40,551 nucleotides of DNA, taken from assembly GCA_030149525.1 (NCBI GenBank), contig JASBRJ010000032.1, forward strand, positions 1-40,551, in the 5' to 3' direction. Positions 28,164 to 37,998 of the stretch are shown piece by piece. The notes below the pieces were generated by a model that had not been told where the DNA came from, searched no databases, and saw nothing but the letters and a program-made list of their open reading frames with translations. This DNA is from a bacterium (GTDB lineage: Bacteria; Vulcanimicrobiota; Xenobia; Xenobiales; JADMJV01). Position 1 is the stretch's first letter. Every line of letters starts with the position of its first letter. The translations under genes and the position numbers were made by a program.

Positions 28164-28201
28164 CCAAACCGCTAGCGCAACCTATCTTGTTAGGGGTTTG
28201 G
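28164..28201 (+). promoter_or_regulatory. Hairpin covering the SD of the NCS1 gene
   Basis: CCAAACC (28164-28170) pairs with GGTTTGG (28195-28201), enclosing CCTA (28181-28184)/TAGG (28191-28194). The SD AGGGG (28192-28196) is inside the paired region, 8 nt before ATG 28205. ATAGG (28153-28157) can instead pair with CCTAT (28181-28185), which would open the inner stem. The arrangement suggests control of translation; it does not match a TPP, purine or preQ1 riboswitch that I can recognise. Confidence 0.35.
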
Positions 28202-28204
28202 TGT

Positions 28205-29686
28205 ATGGTGAATTCTCAACACACGGATATGGTGGAATGTCCGTCGGATCTTGCCGAGATCGCAGAAGATCGGTTTTACAACGAAGATATCGCTCCCACA
28301 ACACTTGAGCGACGAACCTGGGACAAGTGGCACATCGCGGCTCTGTGGGTTGGAATGAGCGTCTGTGTTCCCACCTACATGCTCGCCTCTTCCCTGGTCC
28401 AGAGCGGCATGGACTGGAAACAAGCTATAGGAACAGTGTTTCTAGCCAATCTTCTGGTGCTCGTCCCCATGATTCTTAACGCCCACGCCGGGACAAAATT
28501 CGGCATTCCGTTTCCGGTCTATTGCCGCACCGCCTTCGGGCTGGTAGGCGCCAACGTACCGGCTTTGATGAGAGGCCTGGTAGCTTGTGGCTGGTTTGGT
28601 ATCCAGACCTGGATTGGGGGGTCGGCAATGTACGAAATGTTGGCGGCTATGATGCCCTGGGTCAAAGACGCCCAGGCTCTGCCGCTCATCGGTGAAAACC
28701 CATGGCAGTTCGCCTGCTTCCTCGCTTTCTGGGTGCTCAACATGGCCATTGTTTGGCGCGGTATCGACTCTATTCAATTTCTGGAAAAGTGGGGAGCTCC
28801 GTTTCTGATCTTCATCGGCTTCGCGCTCCTGGTTTGGGCTTACCTCAAGGCCGACGGGTTCGGGCCCATGTTGAGCGAGCCGTCCAAACTCAACAGCTGG
28901 GGAGAGTTCATGGCCGTGTTCGCCCCGGGCCTCACCGCGAATGTGAGCTTCTGGGCCACCTTGTCCCTCAATATCCCCGACTTCACAAGATTCGCCCGCT
29001 CCCAAAAAGATCAGGTGATGGGACAGGCCATGGGCCTGCCCCCTACCATGACCGCTTTCGCTTTCATCGGGGTCGCCGTCACTTCGGCCACCGTAGTCAT
29101 CTATGGGGAGCCGATTTGGGATCCCATTCAACTCCTGGGACGAATCGGAAAAGGCTCGCCTTTCATCGTATTTCTTTCCATGAGCGCTTTTGCTATCGCC
29201 ACACTCACCACCAATCTGGCTGCCAACGTGGTCTCCCCGGCCAACGACTTTGCTCACCTGGCTCCCAAATATATCACCTTCCGAATCGGCGGCTTGATAA
29301 CGGGAGTCTTGGGCATCTTCATTTGCCCCTGGTATCTCCTGGCACGTCCTGATGCCTATATTTTCACCTGGTTGGGCGGATACGGTTCTTTGCTTGGATC
29401 TATCGGAGGGATCTTGCTGGTGGAGTACTGGCTCATCCAGAAACGCAACCTGGAACTACGAGATCTCTATCGGGCAGGTGGAAAGTACCCTACCTGGCGT
29501 CCGCTGGCCATTCTCGCCTTCTTTTTGGGCGCCGCCCCTTGCGTCCCAGGCTTTCTCAACAGCATCGGAGTTCTTCAATTGGCCGATGGGTTCTTCAAAA
29601 CTCTCTATGGGTACAGTATCTTTGTGTCAGCGGGCACGGCCGCCGTGCTCCATCTGATCTTTAGCCTATCGCGGAGAGGTGAATAA
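28205..29686 (+). CDS. NCS1-family nucleobase/vitamin permease
   Basis: A 493-residue inner-membrane transporter of the nucleobase-cation-symport-1 family (cytosine, uracil, allantoin, thiamine or HMP; Mhp1-like), with about 12 membrane helices. Motifs include NEDIAPTTLERRTWDKWHIAALWVG at the first helix, the substrate-site helix VACGWFGIQTWIGG, and NIPDFTRFARSQKDQ in helix 6, which are hallmarks of the group. LTTNLAANVVSPANDFAHL in helix 8 is also typical. The exact substrate cannot be read from the sequence. The start is ATG 28205, with AGGGG 8 nt upstream; in-frame GTG/TTG codons further upstream lack an SD. A hairpin can mask this SD. The mcsA-like gene follows directly, so they may be one operon. 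Confidence 0.93.
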   Translation: MVNSQHTDMVECPSDLAEIAEDRFYNEDIAPTTLERRTWDKWHIAALWVGMSVCVPTYMLASSLVQSGMDWKQAIGTVFLANLLVLVPMILNAHAGTKFGIPFPVYCRTAFGLVGANVPALMRGLVACGWFGIQTWIGGSAMYEMLAAMMPWVKDAQALPLIGENPWQFACFLAFWVLNMAIVWRGIDSIQFLEKWGAPFLIFIGFALLVWAYLKADGFGPMLSEPSKLNSWGEFMAVFAPGLTANVSFWATLSLNIPDFTRFARSQKDQVMGQAMGLPPTMTAFAFIGVAVTSATVVIYGEPIWDPIQLLGRIGKGSPFIVFLSMSAFAIATLTTNLAANVVSPANDFAHLAPKYITFRIGGLITGVLGIFICPWYLLARPDAYIFTWLGGYGSLLGSIGGILLVEYWLIQKRNLELRDLYRAGGKYPTWRPLAILAFFLGAAPCVPGFLNSIGVLQLADGFFKTLYGYSIFVSAGTAAVLHLIFSLSRRGE

Positions 29687-29715
29687 AACTGGAACATTTC
29701 TGGCTACAAGGACCG

Positions 29716-30039
29716 GTGCAATTCGGGCTTCAGCACAGCCCCTACTCCTATCCTCGATGCCCCGGTTGCGGTCTCCACGAGGCCGAACTCCGAGGCTCCA
29801 CCCATGTGGGTTGCCCCCTGTGCTACGAAACCTTTCCCGAACTGATCGGTACAATCGTTTGGGAACACCAGCGTTCAGCCGTTCACCACGGGCGAGTTCC
29901 CTACTCTCCTGAGGTGAGGTTCCACATTCGTAGAGAAGCTTATTTGAATGCTCTTGAAAAAGCTCGACTTGACAACCAACAGGAAGAGGTCAAGTTCTTG
30001 ACCGACCTCCTACAACTGCTCGACTCCCACTATGGGTAG
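29716..30039 (+). CDS. McsA-like zinc protein, short form
   Basis: A 107-residue protein placed directly before mcsB. It keeps the second zinc finger of McsA: CPGC, then THVGCPLCYETFPELI and a W-E-H-Q...HHGRVPYS segment that matches the H-x-G-K-x-P end of that domain. The first McsA finger is missing. The C-terminal helix (AYLNALEKARLDNQQEEVKFLTDLL) corresponds to the UVR-like motif. In Firmicutes McsA activates the McsB arginine kinase. The start is uncertain. GTG 29716 has AAGGA only 3 nt upstream. In-frame CTG 29689 has a strong AGGTGA 6 nt upstream, within the end of the NCS1 gene, and would add nine residues. It overlaps mcsB by 8 nt. Confidence 0.8.
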   Translation: MQFGLQHSPYSYPRCPGCGLHEAELRGSTHVGCPLCYETFPELIGTIVWEHQRSAVHHGRVPYSPEVRFHIRREAYLNALEKARLDNQQEEVKFLTDLLQLLDSHYG

Positions 30040-31093
30040 CAACCCTCTTCAACAACCGTACTGGCTAAGAAGCGACGACGCGCCCCACGACGTAGTTCTC
30101 TCCACTCGTTACCGCCTGGCGCGCAATCTTCACGGGGTGCCTTTCCCCTCTCGTGCCGACGCGGCCCTGCGAGAGGTCATTCTCGACCGAGTCGGTCGGG
30201 CTTTCCGCTATGAACTTCCTCACTGGAGACTGGTGAGAGCCGACCAAGTATCGCCCCTCATGCGGGAAGTGTTCTTTGAGAAACACCTTATCTCAAGCCA
30301 ACTCAAAGATCATCCCGACGGCTCTATGATCTGCTTTTCACCGGAAGGCCGCTTCTCCGTCATGGTCAACGAAGAAGATCATTTGAGATTTCAGTTTCTC
30401 CTGCCGGGTTTCCAGCTCAGAGATTCCTGGCGCGAACTTCTTGAGGTGGAGTCTCGAATCGAGCGATGGGTTGATTTTGCTTTCCATGAACAGTTCGGCT
30501 ATCTCACCAGTTGTCTCACCAACGTGGGAACCGGACTGAGAGCCTCCGTCATGCTTCACTTGCCGGCACTCTCATGGACCGGAAGCTTGCCCTCGACCAT
30601 CAACCTATGGCCGGACCAAGCTGTGGAATTCCGAGGGCTGTTCGGGGAAGGCAGCAGTATGAACGAGAGTTTTCTCCAACTTTCCAACAAGACGACCCTG
30701 GGCGCAGACCTGGAAACTTTCAATCACCGCGTCCTCCAATCGGCGGAAAAATTGATCATGATGGAACGAAGAAGCCGCGAACAGCTTTTGTCCAGACATC
30801 GCCTCCAACTGGAAGACACGATATTCCGCGCCTTGGCGACGCTCGGGGCTGCTCGTATCATGACCTCATCCGAGGCAACGGCCCATCTGAGCATGGTCCG
30901 CTTAGGTGCCTGTCTCGGTTTGCTCAACCAGTTTCCACCCATGACGCTCCTACGGTTGCTGGTGGGCATTCGCCCGGCCCACCTCCAGTTGGAGGCTCAA
31001 CGCCCACTGGACCCGGACGAACGAGATGAGTGGAGAGCGACCTATATAAGAAGTCAAATCGAACACCTTGTGGAAGATAAGAGCGATGGATAG
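30032..31093 (+). CDS. mcsB: Protein-arginine kinase McsB
   Basis: A 353-residue member of the ATP:guanido phosphotransferase family that phosphorylates arginines in proteins, marking them for ClpCP degradation in Firmicutes. Motifs: STRYRLARN at the N-terminal part, NEEDHLRFQ, the active-site segment FGYLTSCLTNVGTGLRASVM with the catalytic Cys (the usual CPTN reads CLTN), LPALSW, and SNKTTLGADLETFN. The C-terminal ERDEWRATYIR contains RDxxRA, the motif that binds phosphoarginine allosterically in McsB. Length is normal. The start is ATG 30032, overlapping the McsA stop by 8 nt (ATGGGTAG). No ctsR or clpC gene is nearby. Confidence 0.93.
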   Translation: MGSNPLQQPYWLRSDDAPHDVVLSTRYRLARNLHGVPFPSRADAALREVILDRVGRAFRYELPHWRLVRADQVSPLMREVFFEKHLISSQLKDHPDGSMICFSPEGRFSVMVNEEDHLRFQFLLPGFQLRDSWRELLEVESRIERWVDFAFHEQFGYLTSCLTNVGTGLRASVMLHLPALSWTGSLPSTINLWPDQAVEFRGLFGEGSSMNESFLQLSNKTTLGADLETFNHRVLQSAEKLIMMERRSREQLLSRHRLQLEDTIFRALATLGAARIMTSSEATAHLSMVRLGACLGLLNQFPPMTLLRLLVGIRPAHLQLEAQRPLDPDERDEWRATYIRSQIEHLVEDKSDG

Positions 31094-32219
31094 TGTCCTG
31101 ACAGAAGCAGAGTACCTCCTGAAAATGAGAGATTATCAAGCGGCCGTCGACTGCATTCGAGCCGCCGACCCCTCACAAGATCGGGAGGTTCAGGCCCTTC
31201 GCAGACGTTTTCTAGCCTGGGCCACCCTCGCTACCGGCGAGACCACCCAGGCCTACGAACTCTTCTGGTCATGCGCTCACCACGAGGGCGCAAGAGCGGG
31301 CATCCTCCTTCTCACCGTTCTGGCCGGACAGGTCGAGACTGCGGTCACCAATTGGCGAAGATATTGCGACAAACTTCCCCATCCGCCGCTATCCTTGCCG
31401 GACAAAGAGTGGCACACGCCTGCCGTGGTCCGACCTGCCCTTATGATCTTGGAAAACTATCCTTTCCCGGAGCGAAGCACCGACAAAGGGGCAGCCGCCG
31501 TCTACCAGGCTCTGCTCCATCAGACTCAAGGCAACGCTTCCGAAACCTTTCGCACCCTGGGGCGGGTGACCGACTACTACCTGCCGGCCCAGCTTCTAAG
31601 AGACAAGTGGATGGACGGGCTACTGTGTCTACCTTTGCCTAAGAACTCGCCAGAGACAGCCGCCGAGTCCAGCAGGCCCCAGGAACGATCAACGACCAGC
31701 CTGCGAGGGCACCGAGCTGAAGATGTGGTGGCTAAAGCGGTCCAGATCTTACTCTATCCAGACATCGAACTTCTCCAGGGCCAGTGCGAGACAGCGCTTC
31801 AAGAGGGGCGATACCTGGAAGCTCTGGAGGCGCTCAGACGCATGCTTTTTCTGGACCCGCAGCATACACCCAGCTTGGAGAAACGATGGCGCTTGTATCT
31901 CATGCTGGAAGAACCGGATGCGGCCAAAGCAGACCTCTTCTATCTCATGGACCTTTACGAACGAGAAAAACAGATCCTTGCATGCCAGCGCGTGGCCGCC
32001 CAGACGCTGGACCTTTTTCCCGAAGATGAGAGAGCTCTCTTGAAAATGTGTTTTTTGCAGGCTCGTCTGGACTGCCCCACAGAGCTTGCCCTCTATGGCA
32101 GAAAGCTTTTGGCTCTGTGTCGCAAGAACGATCTTCATGAACGTGCCAACAGTTATCGACGCTGGCTTCTGCGCCAGTCGCTCAGCCTCGATGACCGAAC
32201 AGATTTTGAAGTCGGCTGA
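31086..32219 (+). CDS. TPR-repeat protein coupled to mcsB
   Basis: A 377-residue all-helical soluble protein. Helix pairs of tetratricopeptide type are visible near the N-terminus (LTEAEYLLKMRDYQAAVDCIRAA) and in the C-terminal half (CETALQEGRYLEALEALRRMLFLDP, then PDAAKADLFYLMDLYERE). A less regular linker at about 195-225 (SPETAAESSRPQERST) is probably flexible. There is no signal peptide or membrane span. The start is ATG 31086, which overlaps the mcsB stop by 8 nt in the same ATGGATAG arrangement as mcsA/mcsB, so it should be co-translated and may act with the arginine kinase, for example as a substrate or degradation adaptor. That link is inference from context only. Confidence 0.82.
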   Translation: MDSVLTEAEYLLKMRDYQAAVDCIRAADPSQDREVQALRRRFLAWATLATGETTQAYELFWSCAHHEGARAGILLLTVLAGQVETAVTNWRRYCDKLPHPPLSLPDKEWHTPAVVRPALMILENYPFPERSTDKGAAAVYQALLHQTQGNASETFRTLGRVTDYYLPAQLLRDKWMDGLLCLPLPKNSPETAAESSRPQERSTTSLRGHRAEDVVAKAVQILLYPDIELLQGQCETALQEGRYLEALEALRRMLFLDPQHTPSLEKRWRLYLMLEEPDAAKADLFYLMDLYEREKQILACQRVAAQTLDLFPEDERALLKMCFLQARLDCPTELALYGRKLLALCRKNDLHERANSYRRWLLRQSLSLDDRTDFEVG

Positions 32220-32293: not shown

Positions 32294-33226
32294 ATGCGAC
32301 CCAAAGAGTCACAGGTGCATCATCTCACGAAATCGCACCGCTCTGAAGAAAGAGAGAGAATGTCCGAACCGAATCAGAACCTTCTCCGCCTATCCTACAA
32401 CGAGTTGATGGAACTTCTGGACAAGAGCTCCGTCCTCGAAGGGTACCAAGCAGAAGCTTTCGCTCGCGCCCTGCGCGACGTCCCCCTTTACGAAAACGAG
32501 CCGCAACTTCAGCTCATTCACAGCAAAGCCGTCCTTTCCAGAATGCAAGAAACTTTTGATTTCGAAGAAGCTCTGGTCTTATCACATGTTCAAGAAAGCG
32601 TTCCCTCGTTTTATCTCAGCCTGACCCTCCGTCAGACGTTCGCCCGCGGGCTTGTTGTCTCGGCCCAGAAGAATCCCACCAGGAACGTCCTGGATAGGGC
32701 CCTGGACCGTGTGGCCAAACTTCCCAGTTTCAATTCCTGCCCCATCCTCCAACGGTGCGCCGGAGAACTGCTGTTGGAAGGGGTTGCCTCCTCCACCAGT
32801 CCCGAGGAAGCAACCCACTTTCTCTCTCAATTCCAGAAATTGCCGGGCATGAACTTTTGCCGGGAGCTTCAAAAGATTCAGGAGTGCGCCAAGCGGGAAG
32901 CTAAACGCGCGGGCCGAGACCCCATTGTGAAGATCGATCTCAACCAGAGGTTGGCCGCGCCCGTGAAAGTGGTGGCTAAACTGTTCGGGATGGGCGATTT
33001 CCGGATGCGTGTAGAGGTGAGAGGCCTGGAGTACTACGACCAGGTGGTTGTGAGAGTCCCGGCATTCACCGAGCGAGCGGCCCGCAAAGCGGCCAACAAA
33101 TTCATTCTAGATTTCCTGCGAAAACAGAGCGGCGACGACGAGAAAAAGAGCGCCAAGATTTTAGACGTGTTCCCCCCCGGTTCTCCCTGGGAATCGGGTC
33201 GCCATCCCGTCTTGAATCTCAAATAG
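32294..33226 (+). CDS. Protein of unknown function downstream of the mcsAB-TPR genes
   Basis: A 310-residue soluble protein, mainly helical to about residue 215, followed by an alpha/beta part (VKIDLNQRLAAPVKVVAKLFGMGDFRMRVEVRGLEYYDQVVVRV, then a helix AARKAANKFILDFLRKQ). I do not recognise a family. It contains several Cys, including a SCPILQRCAG segment. The start is ATG 32294, with GAGGG at 32284-32288 and 5 nt spacing; ATG 32360 after a purine-rich run is an alternative that would trim 22 residues. It follows the TPR gene by 74 nt and ends at a strong terminator, so it could be the last gene of the NCS1-mcsA-mcsB-TPR unit. Confidence 0.75.
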   Translation: MRPKESQVHHLTKSHRSEERERMSEPNQNLLRLSYNELMELLDKSSVLEGYQAEAFARALRDVPLYENEPQLQLIHSKAVLSRMQETFDFEEALVLSHVQESVPSFYLSLTLRQTFARGLVVSAQKNPTRNVLDRALDRVAKLPSFNSCPILQRCAGELLLEGVASSTSPEEATHFLSQFQKLPGMNFCRELQKIQECAKREAKRAGRDPIVKIDLNQRLAAPVKVVAKLFGMGDFRMRVEVRGLEYYDQVVVRVPAFTERAARKAANKFILDFLRKQSGDDEKKSAKILDVFPPGSPWESGRHPVLNLK

Positions 33227-33349: not shown

Positions 33350-35110
33350 GTGAGGCTCCGACAAAAGTTCCTAACTCTCGTGGCAGCTCTCCTGATTCTG
33401 GTCCTCGGCGGTAGCTTCGTCTTTCTCTTTCGAGATCTGCGAAGTGAGTTCGAGCGAAATTTTTCTGAAGACCTGGAGAGTTCGGCGGCTGCTTTTCGGG
33501 CTCAGGAGCGTCAGCGCTTCCAAAGCATGGAGGTGATCGGGAGCTTTTTAGAGAGCTCACCCAGCTTTCGGAATGTCCTCCGCCGCTCCGACTATCAGAC
33601 CATGCATCAATACCTGTTAGATGTGAACGGTTCTATGCAGGTCACCCTCTTGATCCTTACCGACGCCTCGGGCAAACTGCTCAACCGAACCGACAGGGAA
33701 GGCGAACAGGGCACCGATCTTTCCGGCCAAATCCCCATTCAGGGTGCACTCAACGGCGAATCTATTCGCGATTATTGGTTAGAAGACGATAAGCTCTATC
33801 AAGTGGTCTCTCTACCCCTGGTGGACTCTCACGATTATGTGGACGGAAGCCTGACTCTTGGCTTTGAAATTAACAAGAGTTTCCTGACCTCACTGAAAAA
33901 AGAGCTAGGTGGCGAGGTGGGCTTCCAGGTGGGTGAGAGCTGGAGTCTCACCACCAGTGACAAGCTCGATAATCCGAATTCCCCTCAACTTCTGACCCGG
34001 CGTCTGCCTCTCTCCGATGAACCATCGACTCAAGCCCACAAAGTCTTTCTTCTTGGCAAAAGCTTAGAACCGGTCCAACGTTTCGTGCAGAGCTCTCAAC
34101 TCAAATTGGCCACACTAGGCGTGGTCGCCCTAATACTGGCGCTTCTCATCAGCCTCCCGCTCATCGGCCGGATGACCAACCCCGTGGAGCTGTTGGAGAA
34201 GGCCCAGGCCGAAATGAGAACGATTTTCACAGCCAACCTCGACGGACTCCTCGCCACCGACGAAAAGGGATTGATCACGACCTGCAATCCTGCCGCCACG
34301 GTGGCTCTGGGACGGCCCGAAAAGGACCTCGTAGGATATCCCATCACCGAGAAACTACCCGCCTCACTTCACCAACAGTTGGAGTCGACGCCGGGAGTCT
34401 CTCAGACAGCAACCTTCTCCCGACAAGGTCGTGACTTCAAACTCTACCGAACATCCGTTCGCATCGACGATTCCGATCTCTTAGGCAACATTTTCCTATT
34501 CCATGACATCACCCGGGAAAGAGAACGGGAGAAACTGTTTGAGCAATTCCTGGAGAGTCTGGACTCCCGTTTGACCGAAGAGATGGAGCAACTCGAGCTC
34601 TCTATCGATCTCAAGAACCTGAAACTCTGGCACCAACTGAAACGAGACTCTTGGAGGCCCAGACTCAAGCGTGTCCATCTCGACAAACTCCATAGCTCGC
34701 TCTCCTCCACATGGCCTGAAGAACCGCGCCTACAACTCGATTTCCCCTCCCATCGGGATGAGTATGTCGCGGCCGACGAAGATAGCCTGATAATCCTTCT
34801 TCAGAACCTTATCCAGGCCGGACTTTCCCAGGCTGAATCCACGGTTAGACTGCGCGTCGGCAAAAACGGCGGAGCCTTCGACTTTTCCGTCACGGTGAAT
34901 CACCCGGACTCGAACCATCTCCTCGCTGTGGAGGCCGCTCAGGAGAGCGATCCCTACTATCAGGCGCTCGGGTTGGTGGGACTCGGCCTTTTCGTCACCA
35001 CCAAACTGCTTGAGCTTCATGAAAATCGGCTGCATATCCGATCGATCCCCGCAAGTCACGGCCAAGAATTCTTCTTCACTCTCCCCGCTGCCGTGGAGGG
35101 AGAAGCTTGA
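33350..35110 (+). CDS. Sensor protein with degenerate histidine-kinase core
   Basis: A 586-residue membrane receptor. TM1 (about 6-26) and TM2 (about 251-273) flank a Cache-like outer domain (LLILTDASGKLLNRTD and LYQVVSLPLVD are typical strands). A PAS domain follows at about 285-395 (MRTIFTANLDGLLATDEKGLITTCNPAA). The expected phosphoacceptor helix (about 400-450) has no H-E-x-R/K motif. The ATPase-like domain keeps an N-box-like LLQNLIQ and a G2-like LGLVGLGLFVTTKLLELH, but the G1 DxGxG motif is gone (VTVNHPDSNHLL). It therefore looks like a pseudo-kinase that senses and signals by conformation. The start is GTG 33350 with a weak SD. It overlaps the next gene by 4 nt (TTGA), which suggests the two act together. 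Confidence 0.85.
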   Translation: MRLRQKFLTLVAALLILVLGGSFVFLFRDLRSEFERNFSEDLESSAAAFRAQERQRFQSMEVIGSFLESSPSFRNVLRRSDYQTMHQYLLDVNGSMQVTLLILTDASGKLLNRTDREGEQGTDLSGQIPIQGALNGESIRDYWLEDDKLYQVVSLPLVDSHDYVDGSLTLGFEINKSFLTSLKKELGGEVGFQVGESWSLTTSDKLDNPNSPQLLTRRLPLSDEPSTQAHKVFLLGKSLEPVQRFVQSSQLKLATLGVVALILALLISLPLIGRMTNPVELLEKAQAEMRTIFTANLDGLLATDEKGLITTCNPAATVALGRPEKDLVGYPITEKLPASLHQQLESTPGVSQTATFSRQGRDFKLYRTSVRIDDSDLLGNIFLFHDITREREREKLFEQFLESLDSRLTEEMEQLELSIDLKNLKLWHQLKRDSWRPRLKRVHLDKLHSSLSSTWPEEPRLQLDFPSHRDEYVAADEDSLIILLQNLIQAGLSQAESTVRLRVGKNGGAFDFSVTVNHPDSNHLLAVEAAQESDPYYQALGLVGLGLFVTTKLLELHENRLHIRSIPASHGQEFFFTLPAAVEGEA

Positions 35111-37998
35111 ACGGAGCCCTCTCGTTTCTTTTTCCGGACGTTCGCTCTTCGGAACTTCACCGGTTCCGCTTCTTCTTTGTCCTGGCCGGTTTACTCATGG
35201 CTTCTCAAGCGACGGCGATGACGGTTTGCGAATCGCTCCTTTTGTCACGACTCGGCATTGAGGCGCTCCCCTACTCTGTTCTAGCCGCCTCTGCGCTCAC
35301 CATGGGATGTAGCTACCTTTACTCCCAGCGGGTGGGTCGTGCCCGCCATGAAAGCACCATGCTTATCCTTATCGGCCTGGCTGTTCTGGTCGTCGGTCTA
35401 AGCTTTCCCCTGGTCCTGGCCCGCTACAAAGCCGCCTACGTCGGCATCTTCGCCTTCCATTTCGTCACTTTTAGCCTTTTCAGCGGTCACTTGCAGGCTC
35501 TGGCCAACGACTACTTCGATACCCTGGCCTCCAAGAGAGTCATGCCGCTAGTGGGCGTGGGCGCGACCGCTGGAGAGATCGCCGGAGGACTGTGCTCCTC
35601 GGCTGTCACCAAGGTTGTCTCCATCGAGGCACTTATGGGTGTCTGGATACTCTTTCTGATTCTAGCCGCCGCCTTTATTCTGAAGAATCGTGAAGAGCTG
35701 CGGCTGTGGAACCCTTCCCAGACGTCAGGCGCCGATGAGACCCGAGATGTCACCAAAATCTCCATGCTGGGCTTGCTGAAGACGGCACCGTTGAACCGGT
35801 CTCTGCTCGGTACCGTCTGCTGCATGGTTCTCACCATGTCTATGGTCCAGTACGTGGTTTCCGATGTTTTTGTGGCAAGCTTTCCCAACGAAAATAAGCT
35901 GGCATCCTTTTTAGGCGTTTTTGTGGCCTGCTCCAACGCCCTTGAGCTTCTGCTCGCCTCCCAGGTGACACCCAGACTGCTAAAAAAACTGGGAGTAGCA
36001 AAAACCAACACAATCCACTCGATCCTGGCTCTGATTACGCTCAGCCTGTTGTGGAATCAATACACCCTGATCCCTGCCATGCTGGCCTGGGCGAATCGTA
36101 AAACCGTTCACGACGCTCTGGCCGGCCCGGTGAGAAGGCTTCTCTTCAACGCCTGTCCCAACAAAACGCGGATTTCTCTTATGGCCTTCATTTCCGGAGT
36201 GGCGGGTTCCGCCGCTCGCGCTGTAGCAAGCCTCTTACTTTTTGTTATGCAGAATCGACTAGAGGCACGAACCTTCATCCTGTGGGGGCTAGGATTTGCC
36301 GCGCTCTACCTCTTCTTCTCTCTGGTCGTGGGGGGAGACTACTTGCAAGCTCTTAAGGAACAAGTGGAGGAGGGCCGTCTTCGGCTGGACGCGAGAGAGG
36401 TTTGGAAGGGCGAAGAACTCACGTTACTATGGTACGACTGCCTTTGCGACCCGAAGGAGCAGGAACTCCGTCGCCTGGCCGGGTTGCTGGACTCCCAAGA
36501 TCACACGGAGGTCCTTCTGGAGAGTCTTTCCCACACCTCGGCGTTGGTTCGCAGAATCTGTGCCGAACAACTTGGAGTTCGGTGTCCTGAGAGCTGCCTT
36601 GACGACACCGATGACGAGGTGAGATTGGCGGCCTGCACGGCCCACTGGCAAAACCCGGAGAAAATGAAGGCGCTCCTCACAGATGCCAATCCGGCGGTCC
36701 GTCAGCGAGCGGAAGCCGCTTGCGGAGAATTGAAGAACGAGCCAACTCCCGACCAGATAAGGTTCCTCCACTTTGGAATGCTGGACAAGGCACTGGAATG
36801 CCTTGAACACAGCGACTCCGCTTATCAGATAGCTGCACTCCACCGGTTGTCCGGAGAGTTCTGCGTAGCGCTGGAGCGAATCTTTCGAAAAATCCAGGAC
36901 CCTCGAGTGGAAGTCAGTGTGGCAGCCGTGCAGTCACTCGCCGGATGGAGTGATCCCATGGCTTTGGTGCTTCTGTCTCGAACCCTCGAACATGAGCGAG
37001 CCAGGACTCGGCAGGCCGCCTCACAGGCCTTGGCAGGTAAAGGTGCCTCCGCTCTGGCGCACCTCAAGCCCTATTTCCGCTCGGAGAGAAAAGTGGTGGC
37101 AGAGGCGGCCTTCGATGCTCTCTCCGGCCTGGACGACCCGGAGGTCAGAGAGACCCTCGGTCAGGAGTTAAGGCTGCTGGTTCGAGAGGCCTGGAAAAGC
37201 CTGATCCTTTATCACCGGGCCGCTGTCCTGGGCGAGGAATCTCTCAGCTTTCTGAGTCGCGCCCTGCTGGACCGGTCTGAGAAGTACAAGAGTCTCGCCT
37301 TTAAAGTTCTCTCTCTCCTGGAGGACGATACCGTGGTAGGCTCGGTGGTCAACGCTCTGCGGTTCAGCGATGCGGGGAAACGAGCTACGGCGCTTGAGAT
37401 TCTCTCCAACCTGGGTGATCGTGAGGCGGCCGGCTTGCTGGTCTTGTTGACAGAAAACTCGCCACTTGCCGAGCGATTGACGCTGGCGCAGAAAGAGAGC
37501 TCCTCACTGGCCGGGCTCCCTCATCAGCGCGACAAGCTCTTAGCACTGTGCCTTCAGTCCTCCGACCGTTTCGTGACTCTCGGAGCCCTATCAGCTCTGC
37601 AAAGAAGCGCAAGCCCACTCCCCGCCAAACTCTTAGCTTTGGGCGGATTTGAAATCTTCAGCGGGCTTTCCCTGGAAGAGCTTATGGAACTGGAAGCCCT
37701 CCTGGTGGAGGAGCGCTTTTCTGCAGGGAGTCCGATCCTCGAATCGGGTGAAACCTACGGAAAGCTCTATCTTCTGATTTCCGGCCGCCTCAGTGACGGG
37801 GCGACCGTCGCCGGGGAAGTGGGCATCATGGACGGCGGACCTGAAGTTGCAACAGTGACGGCCCAAGCGAACTCTCGCCTCTGGAGCCTCTCCGGCGACG
37901 ACTTCAGGCGACTCATCAAGCATCAGCCTTCGGTGGCCTTTCCACTCATTCGGCGGATGGTGAAGAGAGTCAAGGAAAAGGAAGCTAGCGGCCTGTAA
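35107..37998 (+). CDS. Nucleotide-transporter-like membrane domain + HEAT repeats + cNMP-binding domain
   Basis: A 963-residue fusion. Residues about 1-415 form a 12-helix membrane domain resembling the ATP/ADP translocase (NTT) branch of the major facilitator group (FFFVLAGLLMASQATAMTVCESLLL; YFDTLASKRVMPLVGVGATAGEIAGG; SLMAFISGVAGSAARAVASLLLF). About 430-840 are HEAT-type helical repeats (VLLLSRTLEHERARTRQAASQALAG; DGDREAAG-like units). About 845-955 are a cyclic-nucleotide-binding domain (FSGLSLEELMELEALLVEERFSAGSPILESGETYGKLYLLISGRLS), in which the usual phosphate-binding R-x-A-S/T is not obvious (EVGIMDGGPEVATVTA). The start TTG 35107 overlaps the sensor gene (TTGA). Such fusions exist in some free-living bacteria; transport of nucleotides by this one is unproven. 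Confidence 0.83.
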   Translation: MNGALSFLFPDVRSSELHRFRFFFVLAGLLMASQATAMTVCESLLLSRLGIEALPYSVLAASALTMGCSYLYSQRVGRARHESTMLILIGLAVLVVGLSFPLVLARYKAAYVGIFAFHFVTFSLFSGHLQALANDYFDTLASKRVMPLVGVGATAGEIAGGLCSSAVTKVVSIEALMGVWILFLILAAAFILKNREELRLWNPSQTSGADETRDVTKISMLGLLKTAPLNRSLLGTVCCMVLTMSMVQYVVSDVFVASFPNENKLASFLGVFVACSNALELLLASQVTPRLLKKLGVAKTNTIHSILALITLSLLWNQYTLIPAMLAWANRKTVHDALAGPVRRLLFNACPNKTRISLMAFISGVAGSAARAVASLLLFVMQNRLEARTFILWGLGFAALYLFFSLVVGGDYLQALKEQVEEGRLRLDAREVWKGEELTLLWYDCLCDPKEQELRRLAGLLDSQDHTEVLLESLSHTSALVRRICAEQLGVRCPESCLDDTDDEVRLAACTAHWQNPEKMKALLTDANPAVRQRAEAACGELKNEPTPDQIRFLHFGMLDKALECLEHSDSAYQIAALHRLSGEFCVALERIFRKIQDPRVEVSVAAVQSLAGWSDPMALVLLSRTLEHERARTRQAASQALAGKGASALAHLKPYFRSERKVVAEAAFDALSGLDDPEVRETLGQELRLLVREAWKSLILYHRAAVLGEESLSFLSRALLDRSEKYKSLAFKVLSLLEDDTVVGSVVNALRFSDAGKRATALEILSNLGDREAAGLLVLLTENSPLAERLTLAQKESSSLAGLPHQRDKLLALCLQSSDRFVTLGALSALQRSASPLPAKLLALGGFEIFSGLSLEELMELEALLVEERFSAGSPILESGETYGKLYLLISGRLSDGATVAGEVGIMDGGPEVATVTAQANSRLWSLSGDDFRRLIKHQPSVAFPLIRRMVKRVKEKEASGL

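Follow-up and report, generated by a model that had tools for sequence, protein, structure and literature searches.

The locus raises the question whether a McsA-McsB pair that lies apart from ctsR and clpC, with a shortened McsA, still forms a working arginine-phosphorylation module, and whether the TPR-like protein encoded directly behind mcsB belongs to that module. The features are collected in Table 1; the window is the whole stretch of DNA analysed, 40,551 nt in length, from a member of the Vulcanimicrobiota ("the phylum" below).

Table 1. Features of the mcsA-mcsB-TPR locus, with positions in the window
Feature	Position	Strand	Evidence
NCS1-family nucleobase:cation symporter (allantoin-permease-like)	28187..29686	+	TIGR00800 E 8e-109, over cut-off; PF02133 E 8e-109
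Short mcsA, 107-116 aa, encoding a linker, one C-terminal zinc finger and a degenerate UVR-like tail	29689..30039	+	NF053706 partial match, PDB matches, alignment
mcsB, protein arginine kinase, 353 aa	30032..31093	+	NF002194, PDB 8wtb_A, AlphaFold model, catalytic residues
mcsA/mcsB overlap, 8 nt, ATGGGTAG	30032..30039	+	sequence
RDEWRA phosphoarginine-pocket motif of McsB (R331-A336)	31022..31039	+	aligned to B. subtilis R337/D338/R341
mcsB/TPR overlap, 8 nt, ATGGATAG	31086..31093	+	sequence
Orphan TPR-like all-helical protein, 377 aa	31086..32219	+	TPR_14 E 8e-5; single-sequence model; no ortholog found

The NCS1 permease gene (alternative start 28220) ends 2-29 nt 5' of mcsA and is probably the head of the same transcript as mcsA-mcsB-TPR; the HTTM gene 5' of it lies on the opposite strand. 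The reading frame of mcsA opens after a TGA at 29680 and offers two candidate starts, CTG at 29689 (with GGAGAGG nine bases upstream) and GTG at 29716, the first conventional start. Because mcsB has no clear ribosome-binding site upstream, translational coupling of mcsA and mcsB is probable. Overlapping translation probably ties production of the TPR protein to that of McsB. The original prediction described an arginine-phosphorylation module with a short McsA, joined to its neighbour and to the TPR gene by two 8-nt overlaps and flanked by an NCS1 permease gene and unknown genes, and the genes, both overlaps and the neighbours are as it described them. The fetched loci contain 113 pairs of same-strand neighbours, whose short overlaps measured 4 nt (n=14), 1 nt (n=4) or 8 nt (n=3), so that 8 nt is the third commonest size (3/21); one of the three is the mcsA/mcsB junction of a relative (G030). 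Since 8-nt overlaps recur in these loci, the repeated junction is unremarkable in itself and compatible with ordinary operon structure. No CIRCE or CtsR operator patterns were found in the window. About 140 nt 3' of the TPR gene, positions 32360-33226 encode a protein of 288 aa for which Pfam, NCBIfam and PHROGs gave no match. Further on, a PAS/dCache sensor kinase-like gene (33350-35110) is overlapped by a gene (35107-37998) for a 963-aa protein that combines an MFS-type membrane domain with HEAT repeats and, at its C-terminus, a cyclic-nucleotide-binding domain.

The kinase is preserved in its predicted fold and in every catalytic and phosphoarginine-pocket residue tested. McsB consists of an ATP:guanido phosphotransferase domain (PF00217, E 4e-49) and a C-terminal dimerisation domain, its AlphaFold model (pLDDT 87) has a TM of 0.90 to 6fh1 over the full chain, and its sequence matches PDB 8wtb_A with E 2.3e-65. 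The match to NF002194 (protein arginine kinase; E 1.7e-94) scored 316.8 bits, below the equivalog cut-off of 385 bits, and that to NF053707 scored 298 bits against a cut-off of 500; such a cut-off is a naming threshold and no functional criterion. Of the compared positions in the alignment, McsB agrees with B. subtilis at R26, R28, E114/E115, R119, C161, R170, R201 and E206, which we take to be catalytic or phosphate-binding sites. The catalytic Cys, Cys161, is followed directly by Leu, where Pro is near-invariant elsewhere. The octamer-locking R194 is replaced by S188, and the compared relatives also have a residue other than Arg there. Both the catalytic Cys and the RDxxRA motif had been read from the sequence beforehand, and the latter pocket is intact in the alignment (R331, D332, R335 and A336, plus S279). 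The phosphoarginine pocket of B. subtilis McsB is formed by R337, D338, R341 and S285 (PMC8370763), corresponding to R331, D332, R335 and S279 of the window protein. The branch of the window McsB has a length of 2.1 (median 0.3), is the second longest in the tree and could not be placed by the McsB phylogeny. This long branch, together with scores under the NCBIfam equivalog cut-offs for both proteins, makes an altered function possible. A genome search returned a single McsB and a single McsA, so no fuller copy takes over.

The partner has been shortened from its N-terminal side. McsA matches NCBIfam McsA (NF053706; E 9e-7) just across positions 78-148 of the 182 in the model, with a score well under the cut-off, and matches PDB 8wtb_B (E 1.4e-7) and 8gqd_E (E 0.0034). 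In agreement with the claim of a one-finger McsA, it has a single zinc finger, CPGC...CPLC, with all four Cys intact, and an alignment with 15 other McsAs identifies this as the C-terminal finger, the N-terminal one being absent. The missing finger cannot hide upstream of mcsA, because of the in-frame TGA at 29680, with the permease gene upstream. The tail aligns with the UVR region but is without the E..A..LRD pattern of the other McsAs. Residues 14-66 are the part aligned with 8gqd_E, a zinc-finger domain of McsA, 59 residues long, bound to S. aureus McsB. According to a review (PMC12467219), the C-terminal finger in S. aureus touches loop Y147-Y153 of McsB and sets the orientation of the catalytic Cys157. 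Since the kept finger matches the McsB-binding finger of 8GQD, the retained part of McsA is predicted from the alignment to be the activating part. The other McsAs of the phylum that are readable in full have the N-terminal finger region present or matched, and loss is shown for the window copy only; some partial contigs (G016, G017) do not include the beginning of mcsA. That the loss of CtsR made the first finger dispensable is a weak explanation, as relatives also without CtsR have kept the finger. In the McsAs of five Planctomycetota loci (L093, L056, L061, L070, L119) the last Cys of the C-terminal finger is changed to Asp (GCPxDY vs GCxxCY), and judging by these residues zinc binding may differ in them.

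Candidates for the rest of the pathway lie elsewhere in the genome. Neither ctsR nor clpC is present in the examined neighbourhood, as first noted, but the absence does not extend to clpC in the genome as a whole. A search for a clpC with an N-terminal domain of the phosphoarginine-binding type, which had been proposed, found it on contig C345. The product is a canonical ClpC of 858 aa, whose N-terminal domain bears a strong resemblance to ClpC structures and has two Clp_N repeats with both GTEH motifs kept; the glutamates of these motifs presumably correspond to the B. subtilis phosphoarginine sites E32/E106. Two further Clp_N proteins are encoded in the genome, one a truncated form of 476 aa (L036:5084-6514) overlapping a TPR-like gene on its upstream side and the other a Clp ATPase of 1130 aa (L038:3031-6423). 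CtsR was found in none of the 58 phylum genomes searched, so that the missing ctsR beside mcsB is a trait of the phylum, and HrcA was not found in the window genome. Both regulators are targets of McsB in Bacillus (PMC9604228). Of two LMW phosphatases in the window genome, the one on contig C348 carries CSGNTCRS, with Thr at the position where the copy on C28 has Ile; this Thr sets the specificity for phosphoarginine in YwlE/PtpB (PMC8001253). The C348 protein carries no arginine-phosphatase name in NCBIfam and is therefore put forward as a candidate YwlE-type phosphatase only. With the kinase pair, ClpC and this candidate phosphatase, the arginine-phosphorylation pathway looks complete.

In the phylum, mcsB is patchy, being present in 15 of 149 genomes including the window genome and not found in G003, a genome of the same family. 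With the window McsB as the sole query, a genome-contig collection yielded no relative, although records lying very close to the genome of the window may be missing from it. The relatives in the family and phylum (G001, G002, G004, G005, f4, f9, f10, f16) have the same gene pair, no CtsR and, in several cases, overlapping genes. They differ from the window in that the N-terminal finger of McsA is kept where it could be read, no TPR gene is present, and mcsB adjoins clpC or lies within about 7 kb of it (divergent or a few kb away in genus g2 of the same family); the window McsB is 35-42% identical to theirs. In the window genome mcsAB and clpC are on separate contigs, neither of which carries the other gene; in view of their proximity in the relatives, either mcsAB or clpC has changed its place. 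Between families of the phylum McsB is 36-47% identical and ClpC 74-82%, which indicates that fast change of McsB is general in the phylum. The original prediction had placed the locus in a probable diderm; mcsB is common outside the Firmicutes, diderms included, with Planctomycetota, Verrucomicrobiota and KSB1 among the best 80 GTDB matches. Four Planctomycetota loci examined (L056, L061, L070 and L093) resemble the window in having mcsAB without an adjacent clpC and an McsA with altered fingers; unlike the window, they have an McsA N-terminal region, and no TPR gene was found in them. Some relatives encode an McsB without the catalytic Cys, with Phe or Tyr in L029 and L030 (LSAFPTN/LSAYPTN; genus g16, family f10) and Ser in L034, L155 and L156 (LTASPSN; family f16). 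These relatives have clpC adjoining mcsB, and their genomes also contain mcsA, in g16 on another contig; a link between loss of McsA and loss of the catalytic Cys was rejected, since those genomes encode McsA.

Compared with the McsA-McsB systems of B. subtilis, Geobacillus and S. aureus (8wtb, 6tv6, 6fh1, 8gqd), the window shares the kinase fold, the catalytic Cys and Glu, the RDxxRA pocket, the C-terminal zinc finger of McsA and the order mcsA-mcsB. It differs in the absence of the N-terminal finger and of a recognisable UVR motif from McsA and of the R190/R194 octamer sites from McsB, in its place outside a ctsR-mcsA-mcsB-clpC operon, and in the TPR gene that follows mcsB. It is fairly likely that the locus encodes a working McsA-McsB pair that has been relocated away from clpC and whose McsA is pared down to its McsB-activating domain. 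We infer McsAB activity, docking, substrate flow, phosphatase specificity and any role of the TPR protein along the following lines. The C-terminal finger of McsA would dock on the loop before Cys161 (F151-Y157, homologous to Y147-Y153 of S. aureus) and position this residue, and McsB would then phosphorylate arginines on unfolded proteins. Phosphoarginine would be read by the RDxxRA pocket of McsB, as allosteric self-stimulation, and at the two sites within the N-terminal domain of ClpC; the LMW phosphatase with the YwlE-type Thr would reverse the mark. Because no CtsR or HrcA was found, the pathway would serve quality-control tagging and not derepression of those regulons. The TPR protein would have either a lineage-specific accessory role, as a scaffold of substrates or of the complex, or be an unrelated passenger.

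The TPR protein is predicted to have two helical blocks joined through a linker at about residues 185-210. Its TPR_14 match, just below the gathering score, covers residues 235-262, and its single-sequence model (pLDDT 44) is all-helical, with nothing beyond helicity interpretable. Across the 148 other phylum genomes, of which 14 have mcsB and none belongs to the same genus, no ortholog was found at E 1e-6, and a search of the phylum at a relaxed threshold gave generic TPR matches only. No ortholog lies beside mcsB in 80 other GTDB mcsB loci, and plasmids, PDB and PHROGs held nothing past generic TPR similarity. This absence, and the assortment of genes in the operon (permease, mcsAB, TPR), would fit an accidental operon formed after the separation of mcsAB and clpC. 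In this reading the TPR protein is a lineage-specific orphan that shares an operon with mcsAB and the NCS1 permease by chance and plays no role in arginine phosphorylation. The TPR gene is intact, however, and overlapping translation, which often couples functionally linked genes, is found at the mcsB/TPR junction; the orphan reading is given somewhat less than an even chance.

The same junction and the tight operon order are what favour a dedicated adaptor, one that would bind McsB or the short McsA and recruit substrates or link the kinase to ClpC, and perhaps replace the lost N-terminal finger of McsA. TPR proteins are common scaffolds, the codon-position composition of the TPR gene equals that of its neighbours, and the gene occurs in the sole phylum genome in which loss of the N-terminal McsA finger is shown. 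Still, the association is confined to a single genome, a literature search found no paper linking McsB with TPR proteins, and the new adaptor of the original prediction is not borne out by the relatives examined, as the gene adjoins mcsB in none of them. An adaptor is thus unlikely, and a passenger is at least as likely.

Decay of the module, with half of McsA lost, McsB evolving fast and the pathway becoming non-functional or independent of McsA, would account for the long McsB branch, the degenerate UVR tail, the lost finger and the patchy occurrence of mcsB. Against it stand the intact catalytic and phosphoarginine-pocket residues, the four intact zinc Cys of the kept finger, the absence of frameshifts and the preserved overlapping operon structure; McsB also diverges far more than ClpC between families of the phylum anyway. 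Decay is accordingly considered improbable. A split of the activator in this genus, in which the one-finger McsA activates and the co-translated TPR protein recruits or targets substrates in a three-part complex not seen elsewhere, is improbable as well. The McsAB variant is real and, as far as gene content and residues can tell, probably functional, with the TPR gene as an orphan partner.

A TPR partner, if true, would represent a novel kind of accessory factor, on the basis of one genome. If the short McsA activates McsB, it would be a natural minimal activator of the sort implied by the structure of the S. aureus complex, and what the N-terminal finger of McsA does could be separated from kinase activation. 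As machinery for arginine phosphorylation occurs here in a phylum lacking CtsR, the tag could be studied as protein quality control apart from CtsR regulation.
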